This document shows, in pieces, positions 27,020 to 59,800 of a DNA stretch of 64,000 bases. Numbering within the stretch: the stretch's first letter is position 1; each line of letters starts with the position of its first letter. Position numbers and translations under genes: made by a program. The DNA lies in assembly GCA_026874595.1 (NCBI GenBank), contig CM049309.1, forward strand, positions 91,906,723-91,970,722, in the 5' to 3' direction. The DNA comes from Sipunculus nudus. Its lineage: Eukaryota > Annelida > Sipuncula > Golfingiida > Sipunculidae. Under the pieces are notes generated by a model, which was not told where the DNA came from, ran no database searches, and saw only the letters and a list, made by a program, of their open reading frames with translations.

Positions 27020-27113
27020 TGGGTTGGGGAGGGGCGCTTATTAGGGTATAAAAATATTTTGAAAAATTTAATTTTGAGAGCGCCCGGGGCGCTTATTAAG
27101 TCAATTACGGTAT
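27020..27113. repeat. MITE-like GCGCTTATTA inverted repeat fragment
   Basis: GGGGCGCTTATTAGG and CGGGGCGCTTATTAAG flank an AT-rich segment, ending in TCAATTACGGTA. This resembles a widespread short inverted-repeat element seen in many invertebrate genomes. The family assignment is from memory and not verified. Confidence 0.4.
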
Positions 27114-27147
27114 GTAGTATTTGTAGGTATGATGTTTTGTTCCTTAG

Positions 27148-27264
27148 TTATTGGAAGAGAGAAGACACGTCAGAGTTACTGATGGCTAACCGCCGCCTGA
27201 GCGTGTTCCATGTAGCCGTCTCCGTCGTGGTGACGTTCCTTTCCATCTCGATCAGGGTGTCAGG
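27148..27264 (+). pseudogene. relic exon of an SLC5-like transporter
   Basis: A 117-base segment preceded by a pyrimidine-rich acceptor (TTTTGTTCCTTAG) and followed by GTAAGT. Phase 2 at both ends. Its 39 codons include TSELLMANRRLSV and HVAVSVVVTFLS, which align with [13 protein letters not shown] and [12 protein letters not shown] of exons 1a/1b of the transporter downstream. Identity is about 40% over 37 residues, so it is an older paralogue than the 1a/1b pair. The expected continuation ([12 protein letters not shown] in 1a) is degraded here, and no companion exons were found before 33558. It is most likely a decayed duplicate. A functional alternative exon of an unseen gene is less likely. 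Confidence 0.55.
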
Positions 27265-27299
27265 GTAAGTTGGGTCTTTTTTTGCGTTGCTTTGGTATG

Positions 27300-31861: not shown

Positions 31862-31925
31862 TAAGGTAAAACGCTCCGCTCTCTCTGCTGGCGACCCGGT
31901 TTCGATTCCAAGCGTCGCTATGAAA
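31862..31925 (+). mobile_element. tRNA-derived SINE head (fragment)
   Basis: The sequence contains GACCCGGTTTCGATTCCAAG, which matches a pol III B-box (GGTTCGANTCC type, with one extra T), preceded by GTAAAACGCTCCGCTCTCTC, as in the degenerate A-box half of tRNA-related SINEs. It does not fold as an intact tRNA. It is followed directly by the SINE-like body that forms the minisatellite from 31926. Confidence 0.5.
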
Positions 31926-32975
31926 GTGGATTGCAGTAGTCCGTTCAAGGTCGGTGGTTTTTTCCGGGTCCTACGGTTGCCATGGTATTGGATTAAGGTG
32001 GCCCGTCTAAGGTCGGTGTTTTTTTCCGGGTCCTACGGTTGCCATGGGTGTGGATTAAAGTAGCCCGTCTAAGGTCGGTGGTTTTCCCCGGGTCCTACGG
32101 TTGCCATGGGAGTAGATTAAAGTAGCCCGTCTAAGGTCAGTGGTTTTTTTTCGGGTCCTACGGTTGCCATGGGAGTAGATTAAAGTAGCCCGTCTAAGGT
32201 CGGTGGTTTTTCCGGGTCCTACGGTAATCATGGGAGTGGATTAAAGTAGCCCGTCTAAGGTCGGTGGTTTTTCCGGGTCCTACGGTTGCCATGGGAGTGG
32301 ATTAAAGTTGCCCGTCTAAGGTCGGTGGTTTTCTCCAGGTCCTACGGTTGCCATGGGAGTGTATTAAAGTTGCCCGTCTAAGGTCGGTGGTTTTCTCCGG
32401 GTCCTACGGTTGCCATGGGAGTGGATTAAAGTAGCCCGTCTAAGGTCGGTGGTTTTTTCAGGGTCCTACGGTTGCCATGGGAGTGGATTGAAGTAGCCCG
32501 TCTGAGGTCGGTTGTTTTCTCCGGGTCCAACGGTTGCCATGGGAGTGGATTAAAGAAGCCCGTCTGAGGTCGGGGGTTTTCTCCGGGTCCTACGGTTGCC
32601 ATGGGAGTGGATTAAAGTAGCCCGTCTAATGTCGGTGGTTTTCTCCGGGTCCTACGGTTGCCATGGGAGTGGATTAAAGTAGCCCGTCTGAGGTCGGTGG
32701 TTTTCTCCGGGTCGTACGGTTGCCATGGGAGTGGATAAAAGTATCCCGTCTGAGGTCGGTGGTTTTCTCCGGGTCCTACGGTTGCCATGGGAGTGGATTA
32801 AAGTAGCCCGTCAGAGGTCGGTGGTTTTCTCAGGGTCGTACGGTTGCCATGGGAGTGGATTAAAGTAGCCCGTCTAAGGTCGGTGGTCTTCTCCGGGTCC
32901 TACGATTGCCATGGAAGTGGATTAAAGTAGCCCGTCTGAGGTCGGTGGTTTTCTCCGGGTCTTACGGTTGCCTAG
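31926..32975. repeat. 62-bp minisatellite derived from a SINE body, about 17 units
   Basis: Successive copies of a 61-64-base unit: AGTGGATTAAAGTAGCCCGT, CTAAGGTCGGTGGTTTTCTC, CGGGTCCTACGGTTGCCATG, GG. The first copy is continuous with the tRNA-like head at 31862. Early copies carry more variable T runs (TTTTTT) and later ones are more uniform, indicating expansion from the 5' side. There are two subfamilies, CTAAGGTCGG and CTGAGGTCGG. Confidence 0.93.
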
Positions 32976-33397: not shown

Positions 33398-33405
33398 TAT
33401 ATAAA
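33398..33405 (+). promoter_or_regulatory. TATA box upstream of exon 1a
   Basis: TATATAAA followed by GCAGCTGGG lies 153 bases before the exon 1a start codon at 33558. This spacing allows a 5' UTR of about 120-130 bases. No comparable TATA element at a usable distance was seen before exon 1b. Confidence 0.5.
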
Positions 33406-33557
33406 GCAGCTGGGTATTTAAGGAACAGGCCCTGGGACTCGCACAAGGTGTATGTTCTCCCCTTTCAGAGGAGCTGGGCGTACGATATTTTGGAAGGACA
33501 CTCTAAGGTTGAACTCAAGATATTTGGAGGGGGTGTTAGTATTTAGAATATTTCAGA

Positions 33558-36500
33558 ATGTCGACTTCGGAAGACATACCAGGATTCGGGGTGGTTGATT
33601 ATGTCTTGTTTTGCGGCATGTTAGTCGGGTCTCTGGGGATAGGGATCTATTACGCCGTCTCTGGAGGGAAGCAGAAAACAACATCCGAGTTTCTGATGGG
33701 GAACCGCGGGATGAGCATCGTCCCTGTAGCTATATCCATCCTGGTGTCTTTCATGTCCGCCATTTTGATTCTGGGGACTCCGGCGGAGATGTACACGCGG
33801 GGGACCATGTATTTCCTGTACGTGATCGGGATCTCACTTGCCATTGTATTTGCTACGCTACTCTTTGTACCTCTACTGTTTCCTTTGAAGCTCACGAGCT
33901 CCTACGAGGTAAGTCAGCACTGTATTTTAAAATACAAAAATGTAATTGAAAGTATAAAAAACTTAAAAAGTGAAAAAAAGTTCTTTTCTAAAATATAAAT
34001 ATAATACAATCATAACATTATTTACATATTTATATATATATAATTAATTTATCTATTCATGCAAGTGTTTAAATCATGACACACATTAAAATAGTGATTT
34101 AAAAATTGATTTTCGTGTGGGATATACACATTTCCTTTCACACCTGCGCCCTTTCTCACAGTAGGTAAATCAGACATACCACAGGTAACGTCGGGGGTGG
34201 CCTGGCGCCTGTTATGTCTCCCCACTGTGATTTGAGCGTTCTTAATGACAATGATTGGTAAACTACTTGAACAATACCCCGTTTCTTATCAGTTTGTTTC
34301 TTTGCCATATTTATTTGATTAACCTGTTCCAACCTTGAGTTACTTCTCTCTGTATCTTCCGTTCTCATTTCCCGTTGGAAGTCCTTTTGCTGATACATCT
34401 CCTATCCGCAACGGTACCCTTGAGAACATGAAAAGGATCCTTCATTTAATACACATCAAAGAGGACAAACCAGCTCAGACCGGGCAAACTCGCACAGGAC
34501 ACAAACGCTCAAGGCACATCACACCTGAAAAACTCGCACATGACTCTTTGCTCAGGGCAACGTCACACCTGACAAACTCGCATAGTACATTGGTGCTCAG
34601 GCCACATCACCCCTGAAAAACTCACACAGAACACTTGCGCTCAAGGCAACGTCACACCTGACAAACTCGCATAGTACACTGGTGCTCAGGCCACATCATC
34701 CCTGAAAAACTCACACAGGATACTTGCGCTCAAGGCAACGTCACACCTGACAAACTCGCACAGTACACTGGTGCTCAGGCCACCTCATCCCTGAAAATTC
34801 ACACAGAACACTTGCGCTCAAGGCAACGTCACACCTGACAAACTCGCATAGTACACTGGTGCTCAGGCCACATCATCCCTGAAAAACTCACACAGGACAC
34901 TTGCGCTCAAGGCAACGTCACATCTGACAAACTCGCACAGGGCACGGGTGCTCAGGCCACGTCTCACCTGAAAAACTGACCTAGGACACTGGCGCTGAGG
35001 GCACGTCACGCCAGACAAACTTTCACAGGACACGGACACCCAGGCCACATCACACCTGAAAACTCTTGCAGGGACTGGTGATCAAGACTAGCAGTGAATA
35101 CATACATACTAAGTTCTGGGAACAAAACCTGCTTCATATAACTCACTTTTGTCACACAAGACACGCTCACCATGAACGATGTCGCTCAAGGTGCGTTATA
35201 CAGGACACAAACATAAATGACAGGTCACAAAGAACACATCAACAAAGAACACGTCACATGAGACACATCGATAATGGGATACACTGTCAATCAGGACGGG
35301 TCACATGGGACACATCAACAATGAACACTGTCACTCAGGATGGGTCACATGGGACACATCCGCAAAAAAACACTGTCATTCAGGACACGTCACATGGGAC
35401 ACACCGACCATGAACACTGTCACTAAGATGGGGTCGCATGGGACACATCCATAATGAACACTGTCACTCATGACGGGTCACATGGGAGATGATAGGACAC
35501 ATTCATAATGAACACTGTTACTGAAACGGGCCACATGGGACACATCGTTATTGAACACTGTCACTAAGATGGGGTCGCATGGGACAAATCCATAATGAAC
35601 AATGTCACTAAGGACGGGTCACATAGAACACATCTATAAAGAGCAACGTCACCCAGAAAGCGTCACATTGGATAATCCATAATGATCACTGTCACTTAAG
35701 ACGCATCACATGGTACAAATCCATTATGAACACTGATACTCATGACACATCAAATGAAAGAATCCATAATGATCACTGTCACTCAGGACGCGTCACATGG
35801 GACACATTCCAAATGAACACTCTCACTAAGAACGTGTCACATGGGACACATCCATTATGAAAGCGGTCCTGGGTAAAAGTGTTAATTGTGGATGTGTACC
35901 ATGTGACGCGTCTTAAGTTACAGTGATCATTATGGGTGTGTTCTATGTGACCCGTCCTTAGTAACATTGTTCATTGTGAATGTGTCCCATGTGACCCGTC
36001 CTTAGTGACAGTGTTCATAATCGAAACACTCATAATAAATGCTGTCCTCAGGACGGCTCACATGGGAAACACCCATAATAAACATTGTCAATCAGGACGG
36101 CTCACATGGGAAACACCCGTAATAAACATTGTCAATCAGGACGGCTCACATGGGAAACACCCATAATAAACATTGTCAATCAGAACGGCTCACATGGGAA
36201 ACACCCATAATAAACATTGTCAATCAGGACGGCTCACATGGGAAACACCCATAATAAACATTGTCAATCAGGACGGCTCACATGGGAAACACCCATAATA
36301 AACATTGTCAATCAGGACGGCTCACATGGGAAACACCCATAATAAACATTGTCAATCAGGACGGCTCACATGGGAAACACCCATAATAGACATTGTCAAT
36401 CAGGACGGCTCACATGGGAAACACCCATAATAAACATTGTCAATCAGGACGGCTCACATGGGAAACACCCATAATAAACATTGTCAATCAGGACGGCTCA

Positions 36501-39500
36501 CATGGGAAACACCCATAATAGACATTGTCAATCAGGACGGCTCACATGGGAAACACCCGTAATAGACATTGTCAATCAGGACGGCTCACATGGGAAACAC
36601 CCGTAATAAACATTGTCAATCAGGACGGCTCACATGGGAAACACCCGTAATAAACATTGTCAATCAGGACGGCTCACATGGGAAACACCCATAATAAACA
36701 TTGTCAATCAGGACGGCTCACATGGGAAACACCCATAATAAACATTGTCAATCAGGACGGCTCACATGGGAAACACCCATAATAAACATTGTCAATCAGG
36801 ACGGCTCACATGGGAAACACCCATAATAAACATTGTCAATCAGGACGGCTCACATGGGAAACACCCATAATAAACATTGTCAATCAGGACGGCTCACATG
36901 GGAAACACCCATAATAAACATTGTCAATCAGGACGGCTCACATGGGAAACACCATAATAAACATTGTCAATCAGGACGGCTCACATGGGAAACACCCATA
37001 ATAAACATTGTCAATCAGGACGGCTCACATGGGAAACACCCATAATAAACATTGTCAATCAGGACGGCTCACATGGGAAACACCCGTAATAAACATTGTC
37101 AATCAGGACGGCTCACATGGGAAACACCCATAATAAACATTGTCAATCAGGACGGCTCACATGGGAAACACCCATAATAATCATTGTCAACCAGGACGAC
37201 TTGCATGGGAAACACCCATAATAAACATTCTCAATCAGGACGGCTCACATGGGAAACACCCATAATAAACATTGTCAATCAGGACGGCTCACATGGGAAA
37301 CACCCATAATAAACATTGTCAATCAGGACACATCCTACTTGACTTTTCCACTCAATACACGGAATACCAGTACCAGACATTCAGGGCATTCAGCAGACCT
37401 TTGTTTACTCACACTAGATATTATTTCTATTATAGTTTATCTTGTTGTCATACTTTTACATCCTGTTATTTTGTTTTTCTCTCATTTGTTCTCTTATCCC
37501 TCACCTGATGTTACTCAGTGCTCTTATTACTAACAGCATTATGAATCCAACAGATAAGGAGGACCTGAACAACTCACAAACAATGATATATTTTTATAAC
37601 ACTTAACGAATTTTCATAGACACAACATAAACTTTCATATACATTTGATAAAATGTCAAATACCCATAATAAACTTTCATATACATTTAATAAAATTTCA
37701 TATACCCATAATAAACTTTCATATACATTAAATAAACTTTCATTTACCCATAATTAATTTCATAGACACTTGATAAACTTTTATATACACTAAATAAACG
37801 TTCATATACGCAATAAAACTTCATATACTCATAGCCTTTCATATTTATAGACACTTAATAAATTTTATAGACACTTGATGCACTGCCATATAATGTTAAG
37901 TTATCACTGTTAATCATAATTACCTTCTGAACAAACCTTAACTCAGCTCTCAAACTGAGAACTCATACCCGGGTGTAATCTGTGCCAGACATTCCTTGTA
38001 CGAGTGGGACTTGTGTAACCCCCGTGGTGAGCACGTACGTTACCAAAGCGCGGTCTCTGTGATTTACTCGGCCTGTCTAGTAACTGAAACATGGAGTTTT
38101 CGATAACATCTCACTTGGTTAATCGTCCGGCGATGACGCAGACCTTGATATCGGGTGGTTTTTACTTGATATCAGGCGCTCTTTTACCATTAATCATCTA
38201 TGCGTTCAGACATAGACACGTGACTTTTCCATGTATCTGTGGTGCTTCAAGGCGTTCTCAAATTATATAAAAAAATGATTAAAACATGATATGGTGAGAC
38301 AATGGTGATACAGATCTACAAAACTATTTATTTATTCCAAAAATGTGTATTTCATTTCACACACATACACACACACATATATAAATAAATAAGACCCATG
38401 TAGACTATAAGAGTGTATAGTGGCCATCTTTTGACTGAGACGTTCGTGCTGTTATACCGTATCGGACTCCGCCATCCCTTGCCTGCACAGTCTTTTAAAG
38501 GAACCCAATCACCTATAAAGCATATTTAATTAACACGAAAATTAGCTTCTTTCTGTTAAATAAATTTGTACCTGCCAAAATATTGCCCTGAAATCGTTTG
38601 CTTACTCCTGTAAACAAGTGTTAAAAGCAGTGGACCGGGCGCGATCATAGGTGTAAACAAGGCGCGTGCATTGCCGGGCCACAGCACGTGTCAATCAGGA
38701 GATGCCTTGACGGAATTGGCCCAAAAATGTAATACATGTTCCCGCTGCTGAAACATCGCGTGTTGCTGCTCACAATCGAACCTCAGGTCACGCCTTTATT
38801 ATGGTAAACAAATACATGTGGACTGTGTTAACAGACACGCAGAGCAACAATAAAGTGTGCCGTATGCGTGGTACTGAGATTGTGTGCTTGGATGGTTTCC
38901 TGGAAAACTTTTATATCAAGCAAAACTGAACTGGTAGTGTTAAGTGTAGGCATAACATTTCTCCTGATTATGTCCCTTTAAAACACACAGGTCCAGGGGT
39001 AGGTATATGACGACTGAATCTTCACAAAGCTCAAAATCAACAAATGTTTCAAGTAATTTACGAGAAACGTTAAGTATATATCAACCAAGAAGTGAACTCA
39101 GGTCATCCTCACGTCAGTATTGTGATCAACCACTGACCACGCATCGTCCTTTTGAAATAAGTTCGGCTAAGTCAAAAAACAGCTTTTCTTCTGACTTAGC
39201 GGAAAGGATTAAAAAATCCGAAGAGAAGTGAATGGCGAACAACGTCGTGTGCTGACCTGGGCTGGACTCATTAGTGCAGTTATCAAGCTCCACTTTTTAG
39301 GAGGAGCTCCAGAATTCTTTATAATGTGCATATAATTTATTTTAACCAAGGTTACCGCATTTTAGTTTATTGGGTATTCTTTTATTTCAATAATGGAGTT
39401 CTTTTTCAATAAATTGTTCTTTTAAATTGTTGTGCAACGCATTAAAACGTACGTTTATGTTTGCGCTATATTTATGAATATATTATAATTATAATTATTT

Positions 39501-41242
39501 TAACCTTGAAACTGAAACCCTGAATTATAAAAAAATTAATGTGTTTGGTTTTTGCTGACCCTCAGCAATTTGCCTACATGTACAATCATAGCCCGCTTGT
39601 CACGTGACCACGCAGAACACTCATACACAGGTAAAAAAGGCAGCTGTACTTGGTCTCACACATTGATTCCTAGAACCCTGACCGTCCGTCCACAAAAAGT
39701 CATATACTGGTAATGTGGTATCTCAAAATCTGTTCCTAATATTCAATTCTAATTAAGATGACTTGTATTTTAAATTTTAAATTAAACATTCCAAGTGCGA
39801 TGGTATATCTAAAGTGTTACTAATATCAATTTCTAATGGGTCATATCACTTGGTCATATCTAAGGGGCATTCATGATTTATTTTGTACTTTCTCACTTCT
39901 GCATATCTCACATTCTCTATGAGCGGTGATCTAGGTCCTCTACAGACTTATACTTGTGGCTTCTACTGTCTTGATCGTCCCGAATGATTCACATCTCCCT
40001 CACAAACCTTATTAGGTCCGTAGAATTTGCTTTTCATAATAATCTTACTTTTACTACAAAATGATCTTATTAATTACGTGAATCCTAAAGACAAGTAAGG
40101 CTAAAAACAGCTCATCCGACCGTGCGAAATGATGAAATGATTTACCTGATGTTGGACTCACTCACTGAACTTCATTTCACTACTTTATCTTAGCCACAGA
40201 TTGGTAGAAGTGTTATGGTCAATCTGGCCCACTCCGCCAGCGGCCAGAAGTACTTACGATCTTGGCCCGCACCTCCTGTACATGCATGGCGTATCACCGG
40301 CATAGGAGATTTACTGCCGTATATTCATACCTTATCTTTATTGTGTACAGTCTATACACTCACGTTGCTGGAACACAGAAACCTCGTCAAACAACATCCA
40401 TATCATCCTCTTAAAACTAATATATAAATATTATCAAAGCATTAGGGTCGTGAAATTGATGCGGTTTAGATCGGAGGATAACGGACTTCAAGCGGCTATA
40501 CCCAGGTGATAATCATATCATGTTAATGATAAATGACAAATATCATTTACAGTCTACGTGACCTGTTAATGATATAATTTTTGTGTAGCCGGGTGATTCA
40601 TTGACTTTAAGGTACATAGGGCGACATCACCAGACACCCGTTCTGCGCCGTCAGATGGTCTCAGATGTAAGAACCGCTCACACCTCATATTGTCTCAGTT
40701 TTCAAATCTTTCTGAAGGCACATTTCTTTCAATATAAGAGGAAATAACCAGTCACCATGACCCAAAGACGATTTCAGTGGCCGGACTATCTGGTTTTTGC
40801 GTTGATGTTGGTGGGTTCCCTGGCGATTGGCATCTACTATGCCTTTGCCGGAGGGAAACAGAAGACGACCTCTGAATTTCTGATGGGGAACCGCGGGATG
40901 AGTATTGTTCCTGTTGCAATATCCATTCTGGTCTCCTTCATGTCCGCCATCTTGATCCTAGGAACACCTGCCGAGATGTACACACGAGGGACTATGTATT
41001 TTATCTATGTGATCGGAATGACCCTTGCTATCATTTTTGCAACACTGTTGTTCGTTCCACTGTTGTATCCGCTCAAACTAACCAGTTCGTACGAGGTAGG
41101 GACACACTCAAGATGAAATTGTCTGTCTGCCTTTCTGTATAATATATGTATATATACATGTGCTTAATCATAAACCTATATATAATTTTATGTTGTATAT
41201 GTATGTAATTTACATTTCCAAATAAAGAATCCTTTAAAACAT

Positions 41243-41518: not shown

Positions 41519-44500
41519 GTTTTCTTCTACAATGGAAAATGCAGGATGAGACCCCTACATTAATGTTTATAATAAACTGCCAGATTTTTTTTTCTTAAAA
41601 TGAAATTCTTTAAAGAAAGACAGTAATGAAACATATACATTTTAGGACATATACCCCAATAAGGTGTTAGAAATAATCGCTAAAATTTATTCGCCATCTG
41701 CTATTCATCACAAGCTGTCCCGACTGCCTCCTCACTGCCCCGCAACTCTCAGTTGTTACAAGCTGTCCCGACTGCATACTCACTGCCCCGTCACTCTCAG
41801 TTGTTAAAAGTCCTGACTGCCTCCTCACTGCCCCCCGCCACTCTCAGTTGTTGCAAGCTGTCCTGACTTCCTCCTCACTGCCCCCCGCCACTCTCAGCTG
41901 TTACAAGCTGTCCCGACTGCCTACCCACTACCCCCGCCACTCTCCGTTGTTGCAAGCTGTCCCGACTGCCTACTCACTGCCCCCGTTATTCTCAGTTGAT
42001 GCAAGCTGTCCCGACTGCCTACTCACTGCCCCAATCTCTCTCAGTTGTTACAAGCTGTCCCGACTGCCGACTCACTGCCTCCGCCACTCTCAGTTAATGC
42101 AAGCTGTCCCGACTGCCTACTCACTGCCCTGTCACTCTCAGTTGTTAAAAGCTGTCCTGACTGCCTCCTCGCTGCCCCCGCCACTCTCAGTTGTTGCAAG
42201 CTGTCCCGACTGCCTCCTCACTGCCCCAATCTCTCTCAGTTGTTACAAGCTGTCCCGACTGCCTACTCACTGCCCCCGCCACTCTCATTTGTTGCAAGCT
42301 GTTCCGACTGCCTACTCACTGCATCCGTTACTCTCAGTTGTTGAAAGCTGTCCCGACTGCCTACTCATTGCCCTATCTCTTTCAGCTGTTACAAGCTGTC
42401 CCGACTGTCTACTCACTGCCTCCGACACTCTCAGTTGATGCAAGCTGTCCCGACTGCCTACACACTGCCCCCGCCACTCTCAGTTGTGACAAGCTATCCC
42501 GTCTGCCTCCTCACTTCCCTCGTCACTCTCTGTTGTTATTAGCTGTCCCGGCTGCCTCCTAACTGCCCCCGTCACTCCTAGCTGTTACAAGTTATCCCGG
42601 CTGCCTACTACAAAAAATCGAATGTTTCAAACAAACAAAAAAAACTACCTAAAATAAATAAGCGTTTCATTGAAAAGTATTTCCGATTAACCACATTACT
42701 CACGTTATATGTTTTGTTTTATTGTTTTTTTTATATATATTTTTTCATAGGGTGACGTGTATTATACACAGTTTATTTATTTTCATGTTGGTTCTCTCAT
42801 TTTGTAGTACCTGGAAAAGCGGTTTAGCTCAAAGGCGGCCAAACTTACAGGTAGCCTCATCCTCTTCGTCATGCAGGTATGTACATTATATAACCCATCA
42901 GTTACGTCATATATAAACCTATCCACTATATATTGTACATTATAAGACCCATCAGTTACGTCATATATAAACCTATCAGCTATATATTGTACATTATAAG
43001 ACCCATCAGTTACGTAATATATAAACCTATCAGCTATATATTGTACATTATAAGACCTGTCAGTTACGTCATACATAAATCTATCAGCTATATATTGCAC
43101 TCTATACGACCCATCAGTTACGTCATATATAAACTTATCAGCTATATATTGTACATTATAAGACCCATCAGTTATGGTATATATAAAGCTATCAGCTATA
43201 TATTGTACATTATAAGACATCAGTTGCTTCAAATTCAAAGCTATCAGCTATCCTTGTGGATGGTGCATGTTTGAATCACAAAGTTTGACTGGTAAACTTA
43301 TTACAAAACACAAACATTTAATTGTGTCGTTAAACTATTTATACTTTGCGATGCTATTTCAGAATCTCACAATATTGTTTCAAACCATGTTCGTAAACTA
43401 CTTAAGGTTCTGAACATAAATACATTCACTTTAGCGCGGGCCAATACTGACCGCTTTCTCGTTACCAAATATTGCTTAAATATTTTATAATTCAGTCAAG
43501 TTTACATTATAATCTATATTCGAAAAATATGATGAAAGTGTTTAAAACATATCGATTATTTTGGCAATTCATTTTATATGCGCCTCTCAATATGGCTTGA
43601 ATACCAGTGGCTTTGTTTGCCCTACATACAACATAGAAAGGCATTGGTTTTTTTAACTACACAAACTACGGAAACCGACATACTTATTTGAAGGAAAATA
43701 TACGATATGTATCTAAATTATGCCCAAGGCTCTTAGACATTGGCCTGGTTTCAGGTGAATACCTGTGATACAGGTCTCTGAGCTCTCTCAGTAGGCAGTA
43801 TATCACTATGTGGGCTTCGGACCTTCGTGATATATTATTTGGGTGTACCTGAGTATGCCAGTGCATGTTTACCAGCGTAAACACGTGTATTCTTATGTTA
43901 TGAACTTTCCTATCCTGTCCTGAAATTTATCATTTGGCTTGTTCTGATGCTTTCGTTCCTTGTAAACCCCTCACCAGAGTACCTCTCATTGTGAGGCAGT
44001 CCTTCAGTAAAGAGATGTACTGAGAACAATCACTTTTTTCATGTAAGGACACGCGTGCGACAATTGTCCCACTTTTCATCGATCGTCTGGAAACGTGGGA
44101 ATTTGTTTTCGCAATGTGACGACACAAAAGAAATATGATAATTAGACCAATCTATATGTGAACTATCCCGTAATATGAATGCCTCCAAGAATTATGATTA
44201 GTATCCGGCACAGTGACCATCATCTAGAAATATGAACACCATCCCGCACTGTGACCACCAACAAGAATTAATAAACAAATGCCGCAAAGTATTATACCAA
44301 TACATTTTACCGACCTCCCATAAAATATTACTGTTTTTTCTTCTTCTTCGAAGAAAAATTATAAGAAATGGTTTCAATGTCCTGCAAACTGGTGACAATC
44401 TAGAAATGTGATTAAATGTGATGGCACTATGGTCGCATTCCATGGGTTAAAAAAAAACAATATCCAACAACGGCTCCGCCAAATGTTGATGTCTGTTGTT

Positions 44501-47500
44501 CCTACACCAGGTGATGCTCGTGATTAGATTTAACAAATGAGACAGTGAAACCAAAAGGACACGTGTTTTGTCATAAGATGATTTCCTGGCAGAAATTTTA
44601 TTGTCGTAACAATGAAACAATATAAAATTAAGAGAACACGTGATTGTCATCATATAATCATCCTTTTCAGGTTCTATATATGGGTATAGTACTCTACTCC
44701 CCCTCTACGGCGTTAGAGGCAGGTAAGACCTCATTTTAATCAGCTCTGCTCTAAACCTAATTAAATGTGAAGCAAGGTATATAAAAGGGACACATTGCCG
44801 CTGGAGGGACTCGTCCAATATTGCTATTCGCCATAATGTTTGTATATTATTGTATTTTGTATCATTCGAATGAGATCTGGTATTTGCGTAGGCATATTAA
44901 TTGACTATTCAAGCAAGCATTTGGCTGTCATGGTGATTTAAAGAACATTTTGTGTAAAAATGGCATTCATTTTGCTTTTCTCCAAAGTTATTCCAGATTT
45001 CCCAGCTCCCTTATTTATCTTTAACAATGGTTAAAATTTAAGTTGCTCCGTAACGTATCTTGCATGCAGATGAACATAAAATTTTAATCTGCTGATGTGC
45101 AATGATTACTCTATATATTGAGAACATAAGTTCAATGACATATACATGCAGCTCTGTGACAGGTTTTAACTCAGCATTTTGTAAATACCTTTGGTAAAAG
45201 TTTATAGAGAGCCGAAGAATGGATTTAGCCTTATATAATATCCAAGATTTTTTTATTAGGGAATAAAAAATATTTTCATTGATTTTATTATATCACCTGG
45301 CAGAAATGTCCTTGATTGTGGGTACACTAGCCATTGTGATGTTACGTACCAGTGATTGATTGTGAAAGGTGAAGAACAAATTAGATCCTTGTGATCACTA
45401 AAACAAAACCGTCATGACACGGAGACAAATCACCCGAGGTTCAAGTGGCCGCAAGCGAGAAATGATCGTCTTATGTCAGTCACATATAGTCGTAATCTGT
45501 GACATGCTCTTTGAAGGAATCTGAAAAGAATTCATTCAGTTGACCAATCAGAGTTAGCCATATCAACTTCCTAACCGATCAGATAACAACAAACGATTCA
45601 GTCTGACCATATATAGCACCGTTTGATATTCTCGGTATTCTTCTTTATTGGCTTGAATGCAATATTAAATAGGACTTCATTGCTTTGTGGACTAGAGTTG
45701 TCGTTTTTCATGCGTTTAACGGGACAAAAATTAAAAATTTTAATTTTAAATTGTGTTACCGTATAAGCATTGATTCTGAATCTGGAAGAGTATTTGTGAT
45801 CTATAGGGCCAGGACGGTTAAAATATCTAAAAAAATCAATATACTTTTTATATATAAGGTGTCACGTGTATAGAAATAAGCCATATTTTGGACTTTCCGA
45901 CAAACACTGCCAGTATTAATATTAAAAGTATTGTTATTAAAGTAATGGTTATCATTACTGAGAAAAATTTCCCTGAAGTAAAAAAACTGTCTGTCTGTCA
46001 TTAATGGTTCCATTTACGTATGAAAACCAACGAATAAACACATAGAATTATCATTTAACCGTACGAAAGAAATACATATTTTTATATGTTACTTGAAAGG
46101 CTATTTAAAAAGAAAATTCAGACCATGAAGTATGAGATTTAATAGAATTTTTTTTTCAGTTACGGGTTTTCCAACATGGGCTGCAATCATCATTGGAGGT
46201 GTTGTGTCTACTGCATATACTACCCTGGTATGTGTTTTGGCATGCACAGATACGCGTACACATACATACACACATACACAAACCTACAACGAGTCTCATC
46301 ACGGAATAAGTGCCGCCATCGGCGACAGTGTTTGTTGTAATGCGTGAAGGGTGATTGTCCTGTAATACCTGACATTTAGCTAGTTTATTTCACACTACGT
46401 CAAAACACCTTGTTATATATCTAAATTATCTGAACTTCATTCTAACATCAAAAAGCAAAATGCTGCTCTCTTTTATACTTTCCTTTGCTCTAGAATCGCG
46501 TCATGAGTTTTTTTTGTGTGCACTTCTCTATCAGTCTCATTAATTGATATCCCTTTGTTGTGTACACCTCTCAAGTTCGGTTTACCTTTGTCACAACAAT
46601 TATGTCCTTATTTTTAACCTTAAGATAAGACGGTATGAACTCTCTGGTATGAACAATCCACATTAAGTGAACAATGGGGTACATAAATCACCTTCCGTCT
46701 GGGGTTCGCACAGGAGCACACAAACCACACGTTTCGGAATTTGCCCTTCGCTTGTTCAAACATTTGAATACACGGCCAGCTTCATGCGTCGGTCAAAATA
46801 AAAATACACTTACAAATTATTAACAGGTGCCGGATATGCGATATATTGTAGACTTACATAATTCTTGAACTTCACTAAAAACTTTGCTCTGGTTCTATTC
46901 TTGAAATTTGCGATAGCTAAGAGTAATATTAAAACATTTTTGTTATCCCTAAAAACAAGATGGAATACCACGTGACTGGTCTGTTGTCTGTTTAAATGAC
47001 AGTCCCTGAAAAGCAAACTACCCTACTAGCGAAGAGCGGTGAATTGTGTTAAATAAAACAGGATTATATCATGCAGATTTAGTTCTATAAAGCAGACACC
47101 TTCTGCCAGGAACGCCACGTTGTTTTTTAGTCTTCTTCACCTCCTCCCAGCAAACACTGTCACTGAACATGCACCGACAAAAATTATAATTTCGAAAAGC
47201 AACATACACCCGCATTTTTAAATAAGGTTCATCGGGCAACTCATGAAAACAACAGTAGTTTAAACTGCCATATATATCTGTCATATAGCATTCAGATATC
47301 TATGGAATGTATACATTCATATGCCAATTTGTATACATTCTATTGGCTATCGTAAGAATGTATACATGCTATGGTCAAAAATACGGAATGTATACATGCC
47401 ATGGCAAGGGTCAATTCCACTTAATTTAGATATATATCAGCTCTTTTATTGAGAAAAAAGACTTTGAAGCCATAAGATACAGCCTGTTTTCAACAAATAA

Positions 47501-47802
47501 GTAAATACATAATGTGCCAATTTGATGCTGGATTCTGTCTCAGTAATTAATTATGTATTTAATGTCTGTGAGTATATATAGTGTCAAATTATATATTACA
47601 GCGTTGAGAACTTTCAAGCTCCAAATGAGCACAACCAGCAGTTTGTTACATAAGTTATTGGGGGACAAAATCATACATTTATCGAAAGCCTAGTGCTTTT
47701 ATCATTGAATGTACGCTTTTTATGTATGGCTATACCCATGGAATGTACACATTGAATAACCATATATATATTCTATGACTTAAACCTTTAACAAACACAC
47801 AC

Positions 47803-47864
<62 letters not shown>

Positions 47865-50800
47865 GTATTTACATTATCAACTTCACAGTCTCAGTCTGTG
47901 CCCTGAGTACTTCAAAATATGTCCGTTATGGTCTTTTCACCAGCCTGTGTACAGTCCTGTACATGTCCGTGTTTTCGTTATCAGGGCGGGATGAAGGCGG
48001 TCGTATGGACGGACGTGTTCCAGGCGGGAATCATGGCCGCGGGTCTGCTCGCTGTAGTCATCAAGGTACGTTTCTGATTCAGCGACTAATAATGACACAC
48101 TAACAGTTAATGTTTCAAAATGAATCATCATTCGGTCCAGTCAAATATACAGGTAAACAAAATGTTTGGTGAGAATTTTCTAATCCTAATTATCTGTCTC
48201 TTTTTTTTATTACTGGCCATGGCCTGAACTTGGCGCTAACTGCTACAAGACAATGAACAGACCATGCATATGACAATGGATAAGAGGAGTGGTCTTGATA
48301 GCAGGTGTTCTATTCATGCATAGAAAATCTCTGGTCAGATTTCACCGTGCACCGAACTTTGTCTTATTAGTCATAGGAAACATGAGGGAAAGTCCAAAAA
48401 ATAACTACGGTGTCTAGTCAAACGTAAATCTTAGTCTACTTAGACCACTAATCTGATGTAAAAAAACAGTATGAGCCTGCTGTCCCCACATGTGCAAAAA
48501 TAGGTCATGGTTTGGGTGCAGATATGGTTTATATATATGCTACAGTAAATGTGTGTAATCAGTCAATCTGTAAAATGCCTGAAATTTTCAGTCAATTTAC
48601 AAAGTGCCTGGCTAATTCATTCAGGAATATTTAAAAATGTCTGAAATTTAGGCATTTTACAAATTGACTGAAAAATTAGTTTATTTGATAGATTTACTGA
48701 ATCGATATGAAATAATCTTTTGTTTTAACATATCGCATTATTGTACGGAGCCCGGGAGACGACATGGTGAAAAATATTTATTAATCCGTGCGCACGAATT
48801 ACTAATCCGTGCGCACGAATCATTGGGTGTGAAAAATATATTTGCAAGTTGAAAAAATATTTATTAATTCGTGCGCACGGATTAGTGATCAATGAGAACA
48901 GCTCTCTTATGTTGCTGGCTCAATGCTCATTGGCTACTAATTCGTGCGCACGAGTTATTAATTCGTGCGCACGAATTACTAGTCAGTGAGAAGCAAGCAC
49001 ACATCGACTCAGTCTAGGCACAGGCTGGCAGATTCAGCGGGCACACACGGTTGTCAAAATGCAGCCCAGCGCCTTCCGACAGTTCCGTGACTTCCTACCA
49101 GGGAAAATTCGGAACTCTGTATATTGAAAATAGAATAAGGGATACTTAAAGAATAAAAATACAAAACTCACAGAATCAGTTGCCTTGCATGGTGGAAAAT
49201 TCCTAAGGTTTTCTCTGGTTAAAAAACAACAGCCTACATTATCATCGTTGGGGCATAATGGGAACATAATTATAGACAAAGCCGATCAGGCTGAAATTTT
49301 TAACAGTTATTTTGCTTCACAGAGTAACTACAGTTACAGTTCTCAATCGCCATTTGACGATGATTCTAAATTGCAAATTACACATAAACTAGATGAAATG
49401 AACTTCACAGAGACTGAGGTATCTCATGTCATATTTGGGATTCGCTTTCCTGATAGGAACACATAAACTTGATATGTTTGAAACCCAATAAGCGTTTGGA
49501 AATTTTTAAAAGATTATAAATTCCATTTCTCTATGAAAGTTTTAGATCGTATGAACAAATCATTAATACGTTTAGTACTGGAGTGTGGTGTTTTAATACT
49601 TAACAATTGTTCAGTCAAACAGTCATACTAACTGGAGAGTAAACAACGGAAAGCATGTTTAACATGTACTGGAGCGCTCTCGACTTCCAGCACTGGAGCT
49701 ATGGTAAAAGAGCTATGATGGTCAAGTATAAAAATAAGAAGAGATCTGGCTATACAATCCACATTTTATGAAATGATTAATGGACTAGCTCCTGATTATC
49801 TTTTAATATATTAACTCAAACTCTATCTCATGCTCAGCCTTATACAGTTCGCGCAAATCGCATTTGCTAAAGATACCGAGGTTCACACGGAAAGACTGTC
49901 GCTTTTCTTTCCTTCCTATATTCTTTTCTTTCCTCTCAATAGCCTGCAAACTTTGGAACAGTTTCCAATAATTCAGTCTACTTCAATAGATTCCTTTAAG
50001 GAAAATGTCCGTGACTATTTAAACCCTGCCTCTCGAGAAATATACAGTTATTATTGTGACAATCATCGTCAACATGTAATTATCCATACTCGGTTACGAC
50101 TAGGTGCCAGTTACTTAAATCAATACCTATTTTCAATTGGAAAGACCGATTGTTTTAATCTAATTGATAAGCTCGATATGGACTGAGACGTTTATTTTTA
50201 TTGTATTTCGCCTACCAGTAATAATACAAGTATCTGTGTATGTGGAATGTCAATCTGTATTAACGTATATTATGTATCTATATATTTATATATCGTCGTG
50301 TGTGAATATATGTGCACTTTTCCAATCTGATCATTTCTATATACATATATACATTCATGTAAATTTTTCACTTTCTTATAATTGATATGCAGGAGAGCAG
50401 TTGCATGAGCCTTATCGGCTACTTTGTTATCCTATTGAAATAAATATTTTTCCACCTTGGAAATGTATTTTTCACACCTAGGCTAGTAATTCGTGGCCAC
50501 GAATTAGTAATTCGTGCGCACGGATTAGTAATTCGTGCGCACGAATTAATAAATATATTTCACGATGTCGTCTCCCGGGCTCCGTATTATTGTGAAGGAA
50601 ACATTGACAAATATTTTTACCAGCTACTTTTGAGTAAATTTTCTGCTTTTTTTTCTAAGCTATTTATGAAGAATACTCATCAAATAATAAAAAACACACC
50701 TGATGAGAGGTAACCAGAATCATATAGCTGTGTATATCATATATGTACACTGTTATAATATAACGAAATATGCATACTAATACTATTTTACAACTCATAT

Positions 50801-53800
50801 GACCGCATGGTAAGAGGTAAATGTCAAATTTGGAAGCGTTTGATTTAATAAAACATTAAAATGTGCAATAATATTTGAAATTTATGATGAAGAACGGTAA
50901 AGGATAACCGCAGTTACATCAGTTGTTAATTCCAAATACATGATTAAGATATGCTTAAATTAGTGACAAATGGTAGGGTTTAATCACAATTGCCGACTGT
51001 GTTTGTTAATTTTAATGAGTTTGCAACAGTGGCGTCAATTTATCTTCCAGAGGTGGGGGGGGGGGGGTGACTCGTTCACACACACACACACACACACACA
51101 TATAGAAATATATAATTTTATATATACTTTATTTACATATACCTTTTTAGCGTCTGTATGACCCATTTCAAATATATTTGTACTTAATCACATTTCAAAT
51201 ATATTAAAATTAAGTATAAGGTTTCAGAAAATAAAGCATTATGTTTCAAGTATATGTTAATTCTAAACAAGGTTTAATTATTTTATATAGTTTACTCATC
51301 TATGAAATCAAAGTCTATTATTTTATTAATTTAAAATAACCCCCCCCCCCCCCCCCACGGATCCCCCTATTGACGCCCATGGTTTGCCATCAGCATTCTT
51401 TTAGAGGAGCCAGACTGTGGTCTCTGGGAATGTTGAACAGTCAATTTTCCTAACAAAGTGGACATAACATATAAACTGTTCCCTCCCCTGTCCCCTTATC
51501 ATCATATAAAAAATTGTCATTTTGCCATGAAAAAGGCTCTAATTTTGAGTTATTTACAAAATTGTCGACAGTTTCCTCAAATATTTATGTAGTGTAATCT
51601 TTCAGATATAACGTTTATTTAAAAAGAATACTATTAATATGACATGATTCACTCTTTGAGAATTGTGAAACTCAGTTATTAAAGCACGAGTTAAATAATT
51701 CATACAGATTTCAAGAATTCAAGCAAGCGTTTAAGTTTTATTGTGAAATAACCAGCGGGGATCTAAGGATGGGGGGGGGGGGGATGTTCTCAGGGGATGT
51801 TTGCTCCCTATAAGTATTTTCAGGTCCAACATTTTAATATGTTGTTTGTTTCTGAAGCGAGAATATTCCCTATTATTTGGTACCAAAATTGCTTCGAAAA
51901 TTAAATTCTGAAATTTTGAAAGAAAATTATAACGATATTCCCACTCTGAGTGAGGGAGACAAAACTCCTTCACCCGCTCCCAAAGTGGAAAAGCAATCTG
52001 CACCCCAGAGAAAGTATTATATTAAGATCTCATTTCATTTCATGAGTTTTTCTCAAGAACCAGAATTAGGCCAAATTAACGCTTTTAATTATATGATACA
52101 TTAAAATATGCAATAACATGATGTAAAATATATCAACATTTTGTAAGACTGAGGTTTATTTAATATATGAAAGGTCATTTAAACCTTTATTATTGTATAA
52201 CAATAGTATATCATTCTGTTTTAACATTTCAGTCAATGTTTCAAATAAGCTGACTGAAATCTCGAAAATTTCAGTCATTTTACAAATTGCCTGAGTGACT
52301 TTGACTGTAACATATATGAGCATTAATAAGACAAACGATTGTTTCTGACAATATTTTCTGCCCGACACCATTAATTTGACAATTAATTGAAAATATAAAT
52401 ATAGACAACAAAGATGATAAATGCAAAAACGACACTCCAAAGAGCGTTTATTAATAAATGACTTAACGCGGATTATCTTTGTATACTGCCGATGATGATA
52501 TCAGCATGACGTGTCAAAGGAGCATTAACTTTTTATTAATACACACACTTACACACACACACAAACACACACACATATATATACATACATATCTTCGGGT
52601 AGTTTACATTTCCTTTTTACTACTTAATTCTGATACATAAAACCACTTAATAAAGTTTAAATTTTCATAAATTTTATCCCGTTATTTCCTAGTATATACA
52701 CAGGAGACTATCACGATTGCTATCAGGGGCAGATTTTTTTTTCTGTCAGTCCCGTTTATGACAGAAAAAATTAAAGTAAGGTGCATGATCTCTGGGGCTT
52801 GAGGGCACTTATAACATTTTTCCTGACAGATCTGATATCCTTCGTTATGAACCGTGTCATAAAAAGGAGGACATTATATGATAAGGAATAATCTAGCCCT
52901 ATATACACTTGTATAGACAGTGTTGTACCTACTCACTACAAAGGAAGCTTATTCACGGACAACAGATTAGATAAAAATAACATAAAACTCCCTGAGGGGT
53001 AAGGTTTATGCCAACCATTGTAAATGCCACTAACTGATAATGATTCAATATAAAAATCAGAGATATATATATATATATATATAAACTTATGCATTTTATA
53101 ATTCAAGCGTTATTATATATAGTGTAATCAGTTAAAAGCTGAAATAGACAGATCACAGCTAATTTCAACATGAAACTGGGGAGGGGGGGGGGTGAGTTAT
53201 AATATCAGTAAATCATGCGCATGGACGATAGGAGCACACGTCTCAGCGAGATAGGTGTTTTCTGTATAATGGAGGATCCGAAATGTTTAGAACTGTAAAA
53301 CAATATTCCAAAATTTTAGGGCAAATAGAATAGTTGTGAAAAATAGTGCAAGAATAGTTGCAAATTATCTGAAGTTTTAAAGAAAATGTTTCAGACATAT
53401 AGACTACTTTCAACAAGTTATAAGCTCTTGCAACACGAAGACATGACATAAATACACTGATGTTGTCATTAATGTTCTCTTTTATTCAGGGGACCATAGA
53501 TGTGGGCGGAATCGGAGAAGTCTGGGAAATTAATCGACGGGGTGGTCGTCTTATCTTTTGGGAGTGAGTATCTATTTATAATAATTATTTATTAATTATA
53601 AAGATATTATTACAATAAATGAAATGTCATACTCAGCCTCAGAATCTGTAGCTGTGCGTTATAGCTGTACCGTTACCGGTGTTTACATATATTATAAATT
53701 TACACCTGAACTAGTGGGCATACATCTACTTGCACATTAAGATAGGATTAAGCTTATTTTTCTCAATTACAATACAAAAATACGAAAAATAACACAACAA

Positions 53801-56800
53801 ATGTCTTGCACTTCCGTAATAGTAAATTACAGTTATTTAGCTTTATATTTCAAATTTTAAAAGCAACAAAGTTAGTTTTTCTAATTTAAAAGTTACTTGC
53901 ATATTAAGAAAGGATTGAGCTTATGTCCCTCAATTAAAATACGAAAAAAAACCCCGAAAATGACACAACAAATGTCTTGCTCTTCCGTAATAGAAAATTA
54001 CAATTATGTAGCTTTCAATTTCAAACTTCAAAAGCAACAAAGTTAGTTTTTCTAATTTAAAAGCTATATTTTCTTGATTTAGCATGGACACGTTTGTCGA
54101 TGATACTATAGAAATGTCTGATTTATGCCGGGAGCTCATTTGGGGGCGGTTTTTCAATGCGTTTTCGCACGAGGTTGGTCTTGGTTTATTTAAAGGCGAT
54201 CCCTTGTACAGTGCTACTTCTTGCTACCAGATTAAAGCTAAGATTGCTTATGCATGGAATGCGGAATGCGCTATGGGGAAAGCGGGATGCTGACAAAATC
54301 ACTATTGGCTAAATAAATAAGGTGAGATTCCATATGCGCGGATCCGCCATGCAGGATGCGTTTTCGGCAAAACGAATCGCTACATGTAGCGACTTTTCCC
54401 GGTTCCGATTGGTATCAAGGGGAAACATATATAGAAAACATACAAACTGCCATGCATTCCTCATTCCACATACCGGATTTCGCATCACGCATCCCTCATT
54501 CCACATGCCGGATTCCGCATCACGCATTCCTCATTCCACATGCCGGATTCCGCATCACGCATTCCTCATTCCACATGCCGGATTCCGCATCACGCATTCC
54601 TCATTCCACATGCCGGATTCCGCATCACGCATTCCTCATTCCACATGCCGGATTCCGCATCACGCATTCCTCATTCCACATGCCGGATTCCGCATCACGC
54701 ATTCCTCATTCCACATGCCGGATTCCGCATCACGCATTCCGCATTCCGTACATAAGGAATCTTAGCTTAACCCTGTTCTGGGAAAAAAACCATTACATCT
54801 AGTCAAATTCTAGCCTTTCTGGATATATTCCCCGTTCATCCGCTTTAGTATGCTCAACGCAATTATCAACGACCTTACAAATGACAAATCCTTAACTTTT
54901 AATGGCACGTCACTTGTAACCCACAAAGCCAGGGAAGTAGATAAAGCAGATGGAGAGGAAAGTATTGCCGCCTGTCGCTTCTAGGTTTATGTTCGCTGTG
55001 TATCTAGACGGCACGGGAACATTTCATGGGACATGGTTTTTAAAATATGTAAATAAATAAGATAAGCCCCATATTTCACACACTCCTTGTAAAGTGGATG
55101 TACACGTGGATAACCCATATGTGGAATAAGCTCGTTCATAAGCAAAATGCAATTGAAGTAAACTTTTCACCGATGGTTTAGAAAATATACATGTGCAGTT
55201 CTTTGAATTATACAGGCTGGCATTTTATCCGTTCTTTCGTTGAGACAGGACTGCGCGAATTAGGCGGGGCTTGTCAAATGGCAGATTTTGACAGATTTTC
55301 TATTGGCCGAGTTCTCAATACACTAGCGTCATTTCTGATAGATGGCGCTACGATAGACCGTTCGCACAATATCCCATATTATGTCGAATTCTTTGGGATT
55401 TATGGAAAAATATGTTCCCGATACCTGACGATAAAAATGGGCGTCAACATTTTTCGAGGCATGACCACAGAGAAATAGCGTTGCAACAATTTTGTGCTAC
55501 CATCAAATAACATATAGATACAGTTCCTCCGGGATACTCATCCTGGTTTTTTTATTAATTTATTTTCAGCTTTGACCCTGACCCAACAAAGAGACATACT
55601 TTCTGGGGTCTAACCATTGGTGGTCTTGTTGGATGGCTTTCTACATACGGCGTGAACCAGGCCAGTGTACAAAGATACTGCTCACTTCCTACACTCCAAA
55701 AGTCTAGAATGTAAGTCATATCAACGATACAGAGATATGGATCATTCTCTCCACACTCAAAAAAGTCTAGAATGTAAGTCATATCAACAATACAGAGATA
55801 TGGATCATTCTCTCCACACTCAAAAAAGTCTAGAATGTAAGTCATATCAACGATATAGAGATATGGATTATTCTCTCCACACTCAAAAAAGTCTAGAATT
55901 TAAGTCAGATGAACGATACAGAGATATGGATATGATCCGTGTTTCCCTGTAGGGCATTGCTTAAGGTTAATGATATGATACGTATTTTTCTGTACGGCAT
56001 TGTTTAAGGTTCAAGATTTGATCCGTGTTTACCTGCTGGGCGTTGTTTGTGGTTCATGATATGATCCGTGTTGCCCTGTAGGGCGCTGTTTAAGGTTCAT
56101 GATATGATCCGTGTTTCCCTGTAGGGCATTGTTTAAGGTTCATGATATGATCCGTGTTTCCCTGTAGGGCATCGTTTAAGGTTCATGATATGATCCGTGT
56201 TTCCCTGTAGGGCATTGTTTAAGGTTCATGATATGATCTATGTTTCCATGTAGGGCATTGATTAAGGTCCATGATATGATCCGTGTTTCCCTGTAGGGCA
56301 TTGTTTAAGGATCATGATATGATCTGTGTTTCCATGTAGGGCATTGCCTAAAGTTAATGATATATTCCGTGTGTCCATGTATGACTGGCCATACTTAGGG
56401 TATAAATAAAAAAAAGAACATTATTTAATTGGAACAGTTATTTTTGGTGTTACATAATATTTCCACAGTCGTTACCATTTCCTCACACTGATTTTGAAAA
56501 TGGTTCCAATAACTTCATCATTATTTTCTTTCACTTTACCGACCTCTTGTATGACTCTAAAACATGAATATATTCCTATTTTTAGTAAAGATTTTCTATA
56601 TTGAATCCAACGAAATAGTCATACATTAGAATAACACAAATTAAAAAAAAAACATGTGGCATCACAAGTAACTTGTGAATATAAACAGGTTTGGGCTTCG
56701 CAAAGTAGTTTGTCTTTGCATATTACAATTTTCATCATATGTTTTTATGTTATAAGGAAATTGTTATTGATATTTTTCTGACTAATAATGTGTATGTGTT

Positions 56801-59800
56801 GGTGTGGTTACAGCTCGGTGATACTCAATATCCCCGGGGTATTGTTCCTCATGATCATCACGTGCCTTAGCGGTATCGTCATGTACGCCTATTACGCCAA
56901 GAAGCAATGTGACCCCCTCCGTGCAGGCCGCGTGTCAAACCCTAACCAGGTGACGACTACCTACTTCTGTACCCTCAAAACCTTATAAACAGGATATTAT
57001 TTGAACCTACAGTCTTTTTTATTTCTCATCTGCCATGCTTCCCTTTTATAAAAACTGATAATTAAATAATAAAGTTTCAAACAGTTCATTATTCGACTTA
57101 AAAAAAAAAAAGTTACAGACGCAGCTTGGTAGTCATGTTCGAGAATTGTTTTTGTTCTTGTTTTTTATGACAAGTTTAATTTGTAACCACGTAAATAATT
57201 AGACATCAAGATGTTTAGTGGACCTTGTTGTAAAGCTGTCCATCAAAAGATTACACAAGAAAGCAGAAGAATTCTTTGAAGAATGTCTTTTGGATTAATG
57301 TGATAATGATATGATAATAAAAACAGGTTGTCCAACAGAGCTCATATTTATTTTAAACGATCACCTAGGTGTAAGAACCTGCCTTGAAGAAATCTGTCAA
57401 TATATAATCACCATATTAATAAAAATAAAAAACAAAAGTGCTCCAATATTGGATTAAAAAATATGAGTTGGCACTTGTTTGAAATGTTTTCCTGGCATTT
57501 GATCTATTTGAGATGTAGTGGAAATAATAATAAATAACCATTAATCATCATCAGACGTCATATTCATTTCAAAATAACATTAGCTTATATCACTGATAAT
57601 TATAATATTGTGACCTTTTACCTTAATTTTTCTGGTGGCATTGTTTGTTTCAGCTGATGCCATATTTCGTGATGGAGGTCCTGAACGTTCCCGGCCTGCC
57701 CGGCCTTTTCCTCGCCTGTCTGTTCAGTGGCTCCCTCAGGTAGCAATAACAGGAAACTTCTCATCTTCACTAACTCAACCACAAACTATTTTGTTATGTT
57801 ATGTAAGAGTATTTGGCATCTCGCCTTTATAGTCTAGATACATTTGAAATAATTTTCTGAAATATCTGTCATGATCGGAACTTGTACCTTTAAAATTGAG
57901 CAAACGTCAAACTGAAGAGAATTTAAAGCATATTAAATCACATCGGTCTATATTTAACAAGATTAGCTCTTTAAATCTGAAGCAGTTATATGATATCTTT
58001 GTGCTACTTTATTTTTGCTAGCACCATGTCTTCCTCTCTGAATGCCATGGCCGCCGTTTTCTGGCAGGACATTCTACAGTACAAGCTCGGCCATATCTCC
58101 GAGTTCAAGAAGGCTCTCACCACTAAAATTCTTGGTAAAGTTCGCCTCCTTATTATATTTATGACAAAACCAGTAGAAAAGAATTGCATCATGTAAACAT
58201 TAAAAGTAATGTCGTAAACATTGAATGTAATGTCGTAATGTTTGTGTGGACAGTCATATTTTTTAATAATAAAAATAATATCAATAATAATAATAACTTA
58301 TACTTATAATGCGAACTAATACTACTAATAATAACTAACACTAATGCTAGGTGTGATGATGATGATGAATCAGTTTTCATTGCATCTACGTTAACTTTAA
58401 ATGATGATAAAATTACATACTGGTCTGCTTTTTAATACATGTTATGACTTCTGAATTTATCTAGTGATAATATTTGGTGTCGTTGGTATCGGATTTGCAT
58501 TCATGGCACAGAACCTCGGTGGAACTGTTTTACAGGTAGGACTTGTGCCATGGTGAATCTTACAGTAGAAACAATACCATCTCATCCACACATCGAGGTC
58601 GTTGCACTTCCTTTTGTAGTTTACAACAATCTATATATGTAATTGAAATCCTATGATAATAAACATTTTGAATGAAAAAGATATACTTTTATAAAAAGCT
58701 TTGTGTCTATCATTTTAACTGTACCGGAAATGTTAGTCTTTGTGTCATCGTTTCTGTCTTGATAAAGAAAATCAACAATTGTTTGTAAATACTATTGATG
58801 CCTTGTGACTTGTACATTTTTCGTCCGCCAGGCGTCGCTGAGTTTTACGGGCGCAGCGTCTGGCCCTCTCCTTGGCCTGTTCCTTCTTGGCGGGGTATTC
58901 CCATTCAGTGGATGGCTCGTGAGTTAATAACTGTCGTCTGCTTCCATTCAGTTATAATCGTTAAGAATTACTTAAATTAGCAATAGCTAAAATTGCAGCG
59001 ACACTTTATCATGTTAAGCGCAGTCACGGTACTTTCACTAATTCACATGCCATGTGAAAAGATATGAGATCTAATATTCGTTTATGTCTCACGTTTAGTT
59101 TTTAGTTTGGCTGATGTTGTGATTAAATCTTATTTTATCATTAGTAATTATATATATAATACTGGACATATATAGGTTTCATTTTCCTTAAACCTTTCCA
59201 AAAGGATCTTGTAGAGGCTTTAAATAAGAAGGCTGTAACTCTTCAATTCTTTTCCAGGGTGCCGTAATCGGAGGGATTATTGGATTAGCGTTTCCGATGT
59301 GGATAAGTGCCGGAGCTTATTCTACCCGCATTCACCACCCGACTCTTAACACATCCATAGCCAACTGTCCGGCGAACTGGACAATCCCGACGCCAACGCC
59401 CCCTGGCCGTACAGTGGACCAGCTGTGAGAATAAGTTTTAAAACATACAGTATGGTATCGTTCATTTGACACTCGGTTGTCTGAATTTCTAATTTGACAG
59501 AATATGAAATAATTCCAGTATTTTAATTTGATGTTAGCATCACGTGATAACAGGTTATTCCGTAGGAGCCAATATACTGATACATTCTGATATGTAGGGA
59601 ATCAAGTTTGTATCCCCCTCCTTATAGACAACAACCACAATACTTTGGCTCAATGTGTGCGCCCGTAAAACGGTATATGTCTGTATCCTCTTGAGTCAGG
59701 TGTTATACACTCCGGTTCTATACACATGTGAACCCCGCTTATACGTCATATGAATGCAGTCGCGGAGTTGTCACTGTGTTTCTGGAATACTTAAGTTACA

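Follow-up and report, generated by a model that had tools for sequence, protein, structure and literature searches.

A single SMCT-like SLC5 gene with two alternative first coding exons, 1a and 1b, is our reading of the 64,000-nucleotide window (the whole stretch of DNA that was analysed). Their most likely origin is a duplication restricted to exon 1, and the choice between them would be made by a promoter belonging to each. We give this reading a probability of roughly 0.77. The exon pair appears to be of a known kind, with a modest role in regulation or fine-tuning.

The two first exons

The two exons and the in-frame stop codons upstream of them are located as follows.

33537..33539, + strand, in-frame stop TAG, 21 nt 5' of the ATG of 1a, closing the 1a frame upstream
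33558..33908, + strand, exon 1a, alternative first coding exon of derived appearance, distal to the gene body, 117 aa
40745..40747, + strand, in-frame stop TAA, 12 nt 5' of the ATG of 1b, blocking double inclusion of 1a and 1b in the 1b frame
40757..41095, + strand, exon 1b, alternative first coding exon of ancestral appearance, proximal to the gene body, 113 aa

An earlier note on this DNA had described an SLC5 gene with a choice of two first coding exons at these coordinates, and we found both frames open. It had also placed the ends of both exons in phase 0 after SSYE and had joined each of them in frame to exon 2; both statements agree with our results, as the spliced frames are open over 630 aa with 1a and 626 aa with 1b. 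The donor of 1a is GAG/GTAAGT, which is consensus, and the donor of 1b is GAG/GTAGGG, which looks no weaker than several of the 14 other donors of the gene.

The identity between the two exons, given in the earlier note as about 88% over 104 residues, was reproduced (92/104 identical, from DY to SSYE), together with the wide divergence at third codon positions, the differences at the first, second and third position numbering 12, 4 and 63, respectively. At the nucleotide level 233/312 positions are identical, i.e. the exons differ by 25%, and the blastn similarity between the two regions stops 3 nt beyond the exons. The earlier note had considered that 1b might be part of an assembly duplication. 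Because of the divergence between 1a and 1b, including synonymous sites near saturation, and with similarity ending at the exon borders and only one gene body in 164 kb, the chance that the pair is an assembly or haplotype duplicate is negligible.

The shared gene body and the protein family

Downstream of the two first exons the following exons are shared.

42808..42876, + strand, shared exon 2 (YLEKRF...)
44671..44722, + strand, shared exon 3
46160..46227, + strand, shared exon 4
47985..48065, + strand, shared exon 5
53490..53563, + strand, shared exon 6
55570..55710, + strand, shared exon 7
56814..56949, + strand, shared exon 8
57654..57739, + strand, shared exon 9
58022..58134, + strand, shared exon 10
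58465..58535, + strand, shared exon 11
58832..58918, + strand, shared exon 12
59258..59424, + strand, shared exon 13
59841..59941, + strand, shared exon 14
60801..60952, + strand, shared exon 15
61509..61652, + strand, shared exon 16, carrying the stop codon

These 15 downstream exons (exons 2-16, 42808 to 61652) continue the frame of 1a and that of 1b as one open frame. The assembled 1a protein was aligned to human SMCT1 (SLC5A8; PDB 7sl9_A) with an E-value of 1.6e-134; the alignment covers residues 2-555, is continuous with small gaps and leaves exon 16 outside. SMVT and NIS were the next strong matches of the 1a form. Pfam PF00474 was above cut-off for both exons, and TIGR00813 was also above cut-off. 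Judged by its sequence, the protein belongs to SLC5 (sodium:solute symporter) and is SMCT-like, SMCT1 being the closest solved protein.

Searched with the whole body, the 164 kb around the gene yielded no further copy of a body exon, and when 11 of the 15 were run against the window, no duplicates of other exons were found. Two genes instead of two exons were rejected, as only this one gene body was found within 164 kb.

Alternative starts

No further in-frame ATG is present between the upstream stop and the start codon of either exon. Since an in-frame stop is found just before each ATG, 1a or 1b can only start a protein. Joining of 1a to 1b was evaluated at every AG within 150 nt before 1b, and all 11 of 11 sites led to a stop within 44 codons. 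Because of these stops and those upstream of the start codons, a full-length protein would use 1a or 1b, never both. We also considered internal mutually exclusive exons and rejected them on the in-frame upstream stops and the 11/11 AG sites leading to a stop. At the sequence level, two homologous first exons, each having a start codon and a donor of the same phase, together with one shared body constitute the arrangement of a variable-first-exon gene.

The mechanism that we propose starts with the duplication of exon 1 alone, which would have placed 1a and 1b before one common body. A separate start codon, and probably also a separate promoter, belongs to each first exon. The phase-0 donor of 1a or 1b would then be spliced to the common exon 2, with 1b being left out of messages initiated at 1a. 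Both first exons would be used, presumably in different tissues or states.

Selection on the two exons

The NG86 comparison of 1a and 1b over 104 aligned codons gave a dN of 0.082 and a dS of about 2.9, i.e. a ratio of 0.03, which is not near 1. A pairwise codon model rejected omega=1 (LRT 144.6, p 2.7e-33). The dS is near saturation, being finite in 317/500 bootstrap samples, and the branch length of the codon model is at its upper bound, so the age of the split between 1a and 1b cannot be read from these values. Among shared fourfold sites, 32/48 differ. When the same number of nucleotide differences was placed at random in 2000 simulations, at least 39 residue changes resulted (mean 49), compared with the 12 observed. 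Purifying selection between 1a and 1b thus looks strong by these sequence comparisons. The suggestion of the earlier note that both exons are kept by selection is well supported by the 92/104 identical residues, the synonymous sites near saturation and the rejection of omega=1.

A model of three sequences (1a, 1b and the nearest paralogue) rejected omega=1 on the 1a branch at p 0.014, a weak result on a saturated branch, and did not reject it on the 1b branch (p 0.18, parameters at bounds). The omegas of 1a and 1b do not differ in this model (p 0.46). These three-sequence tests are weak, with parameters at bounds, because the branches are saturated. Recent gene conversion of the identical core was considered separately and found no support, the longest run of unchanged degenerate codons being 6, a length reached by 10% of permutations.

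Paralogues and origin of the pair

The genome searched comprised 1.43 Gb in 153 contigs, and exon 1a had 120 matches. The best match outside the locus, C4:19998210 (63% identical), is the first exon of a paralogue at C4:19.98-20.00 Mb with matches to all 15 body exons. This paralogue resembles the present gene in its exon order, which is unchanged, and in its phase-0 first intron, but differs in having one first exon only within the 100 kb examined. A genome search with the body, in which 91 of 414 candidates were scored, likewise gave it as the most similar sequence outside the window, with 59-82% identity per piece.

The first exon of the paralogue is identical to 1b at 74/104 residues and to 1a at 69/104, and its protein start, FQWPDYLVF, is the same as that of 1b. 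Of the 12 sites differing between 1a and 1b, the paralogue has the 1b residue at 7 and the 1a residue at 2; at the other 3 it agrees with neither. A tree was built from 23 rows, namely 1a, 1b, human SMCT1 and 20 of the 120 genome matches. It places 1a and 1b as sisters (91/85, which is under the strict 95/80 mark) with the paralogue joining next (90/90); 4 of its 20 inner branches pass the strict 95/80 mark, and the tool issued a long-branch warning. The end branches measure 0.12 for 1a and 0.0076 for 1b. Since the paralogue is nearer to 1b and the end branch of 1a is the longer one, the ancestral form at the sequence level appears to be 1b, and 1a appears to be derived.

A third, decayed relative was found upstream.

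27111..27267, + strand, decayed third SLC5 first-exon-like remnant with a frame break and a gap after TM0, no N-terminus recognised

In its best 30 residues the remnant matches 1a and 1b at 15/30 each and the C4:20 Mb paralogue at 18/30. A genome search with the remnant peptide, with 12 candidates scored, found only the remnant itself at an E-value of 0.001 or better. The remnant could be either an earlier copy of the first exon or what is left of a different SLC5 gene.

An origin different from the duplication of exon 1 alone would be a tandem duplication of the whole gene, with 1a as the survivor that lost its own body and was captured by the neighbouring one. The clustering of many SLC5 first-exon matches in this genome and the further decayed first-exon remnant at 27.1 kb are consistent with such an event, but it would be expected to fit poorly with the finding of no second copy of any body exon in 164 kb, and we regard it as unlikely. 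It differs from the preferred reading in origin only.

The position of 1a in these comparisons also bears on whether the exon is in use. If 1a was used formerly or never, it could be heading for loss like the remnant at 27.1 kb, a decayed relative already present upstream, and only 1b would be used. The residue changes since the split have mostly fallen on 1a, as seen from the 12 sites and the branch lengths above, and 1a is without the F-x-W tail motif that is present in 1b and in 14/20 fetched paralogues (human SMCT1 and 6/20 fetched paralogues are also without it). However, 1a is fully open and has a consensus donor, its differences from 1b are overwhelmingly synonymous, and omega=1 was rejected on its branch in the three-sequence model; loss of 1a is therefore quite improbable in our view, and use of both exons is the likelier reading.

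Another pair of same-strand first exons, C6:30271801 and C6:30301428, was used as a control. Twelve body pieces were found between the two members (query residues 1-467 of 513, with exon 11 unseen); because these pieces lie between them, the C6 pair represents two genes.

Among the 120 matches of exon 1a, 26 are in open frames of at least 560 aa, so that these SLC5 genes seem to lack introns; many of the 26 occur in clusters, and they are mainly on C9, C2 and C7. Gene-body matches of equal score, with four stops each, were seen at C4:5392818, 5397508 and 5402198, at a spacing of 4690 bp, with a fourth adjoining at 5387867. The matches at C4:5392818-5402198 give the impression of broken SLC5 copies arranged in tandem.

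Helices and mapped binding positions

We take exon 1 to encode TM0, TM1 and TM2 in SLC5 numbering. The earlier note had located the differences between 1a and 1b mainly in the N-terminal tail, TM1 and TM3. The tail and these two helices are indeed where they are found, but the numbering has to be changed, as helices counted from the N-terminus as TM1 and TM3 are TM0 and TM2 of SLC5. The helix counted as second corresponds to TM1 of LeuT and is identical in 1a and 1b. Seven of the 12 aligned differences are in TM0 and five in TM2, and the tails are unalike besides. The TM2 changes are conservative (L/I, I/M, S/T, V/I and F/Y).

In SGLT1, A76 and I79 are part of the Na2 site, and H83 and E102 contact the sugar. 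In an alignment to the SGLT1 sequence, positions A76, S77, N78, I79, H83, I98, F101 and E102 correspond to V63, S64, F65, M66, L70, Y85, Y88 and V89 of 1a, and 1b is identical at all of them. The TM1 residues S77 and N78 and the TM2 residues I98 and F101 are described as gate layers of SGLT1, its sugar as enclosed by TM1, TM2, TM3, TM6, TM7 and TM10, and its TM0 as part of the moving region (PMC10203128, in part). The proposal of the earlier note that the differing parts are those contributing to sodium and substrate binding was not confirmed: the mapped Na2, sugar and gate positions are the same in 1a and 1b, which differ only in the tail, in TM0 and at TM2 positions other than the mapped ones. 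A difference between the isoforms at the sodium or substrate sites is unsupported because these mapped positions are identical.

The earlier note had also suggested that the isoforms may differ in transport properties or in tissue or targeting control. A difference in tissue or targeting control is possible. For a difference in transport, the TM0 and TM2 variants would alter kinetics, affinity or sodium coupling. The restriction of all aligned differences to TM0 and TM2, the place of TM0 in the moving region and of TM2 around the sugar in SGLT1 (PMC10203128, in part), and the longer protein branch of 1a (0.12 vs 0.0076) point in this direction. Against it, 1a and 1b do not differ at any position aligned to a Na2, sugar or gate residue and the changes in TM2 are conservative, and we consider a transport difference doubtful. 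Indirect effects on transport via the TM0 or TM2 differences are possible.

A narrower form, in which promoter choice swaps TM0 and part of TM2 and leaves ion and substrate sites untouched, giving one specificity with different conformational kinetics, is rather unlikely. If true, it would amount to an experiment by nature on TM0, a helix of the SLC5 fold that is poorly understood. The pair also supplies two naturally occurring forms of TM0 and TM2 in a transporter that is otherwise the same, and these could be compared directly by uptake.

In the preferred reading of two promoter-chosen first exons, both isoforms would transport nearly equally, because they share the same residues at the mapped substrate and sodium positions. 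What the second exon adds is most likely control over the place and time of transporter production; the altered TM0 and TM2 may in addition tune the protein slightly.

Relation to known systems

Variable first exons have been well described in the vertebrate UGT1, GCNT2 and protocadherin clusters (PMC1885805, in part). The present gene is like UGT1 and GCNT2 in having tandem homologous first coding exons, common downstream exons, and birth and death with relics (PMC1885805, in part). Most likely, as at UGT1 or GCNT2, the choice between isoforms that are nearly equivalent would be made by two promoters. It differs from these two in having two intact exons and a decayed relative, in encoding a transporter and not an enzyme, and in that its separate promoters are predicted. 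The first exons of UGT1 encode the acceptor-recognition domain, whereas the mapped substrate positions are identical here.

Substituted exons of the SLC12A1 type are internal. They are chosen by mutually exclusive splicing, whereas in the present gene a first exon is chosen. The two cases are alike in having homologous alternative exons in a membrane transporter, of ancient origin and with mostly conservative changes, as described for the tandem duplicated exon substitution of SLC12A1 (PMC9741552, in part).

Among the human genes listed in PMC2923625 (in part), SLC5A12 has a tissue pattern from one alternative promoter, P2 in kidney. Our literature search found no report of a duplicated coding exon or an alternative first exon in SLC5A8, and the term 'first exon' is absent from the accessible part of the Sinonovacula SMCT/MCT paper. 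A long-kept pair of first exons in an SLC5 transporter would extend the variable-first-exon kind to another gene family.

Flanking DNA

The motif TATATAA is present at 33398 (160 nt 5' of 1a) and at 40421 (336 nt 5' of 1b), a weak signal in AT-rich DNA. No shared promoter motif was found in the 600-nt upstream regions of 1a and 1b, whose alignment score was reached by 24/200 shuffles. The upstream region of 1b scored higher against that of the paralogue than against that of 1a, a score reached by 6/200 shuffles. There were 0 Rfam matches.

The first 300 nt of the introns after 1a and 1b were aligned with a score of 27, which was reached by 0/200 shuffles in each of two tests. The alignment consists of a TA repeat, and a score of 26 (vs 27) was obtained with unrelated DNA near 47.8 kb; for these reasons homology of the two introns was not counted.

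Long minisatellites flank both first exons, at 31925-32972 (62 bp units), 34485-35062 (89), 35495-37329 (44) and 41710-42609 (49), and could be involved in duplication or regulation. Further upstream on the same strand, two matrix metalloproteinase pieces (Pfam Peptidase_M10) were found at 15582-16543.
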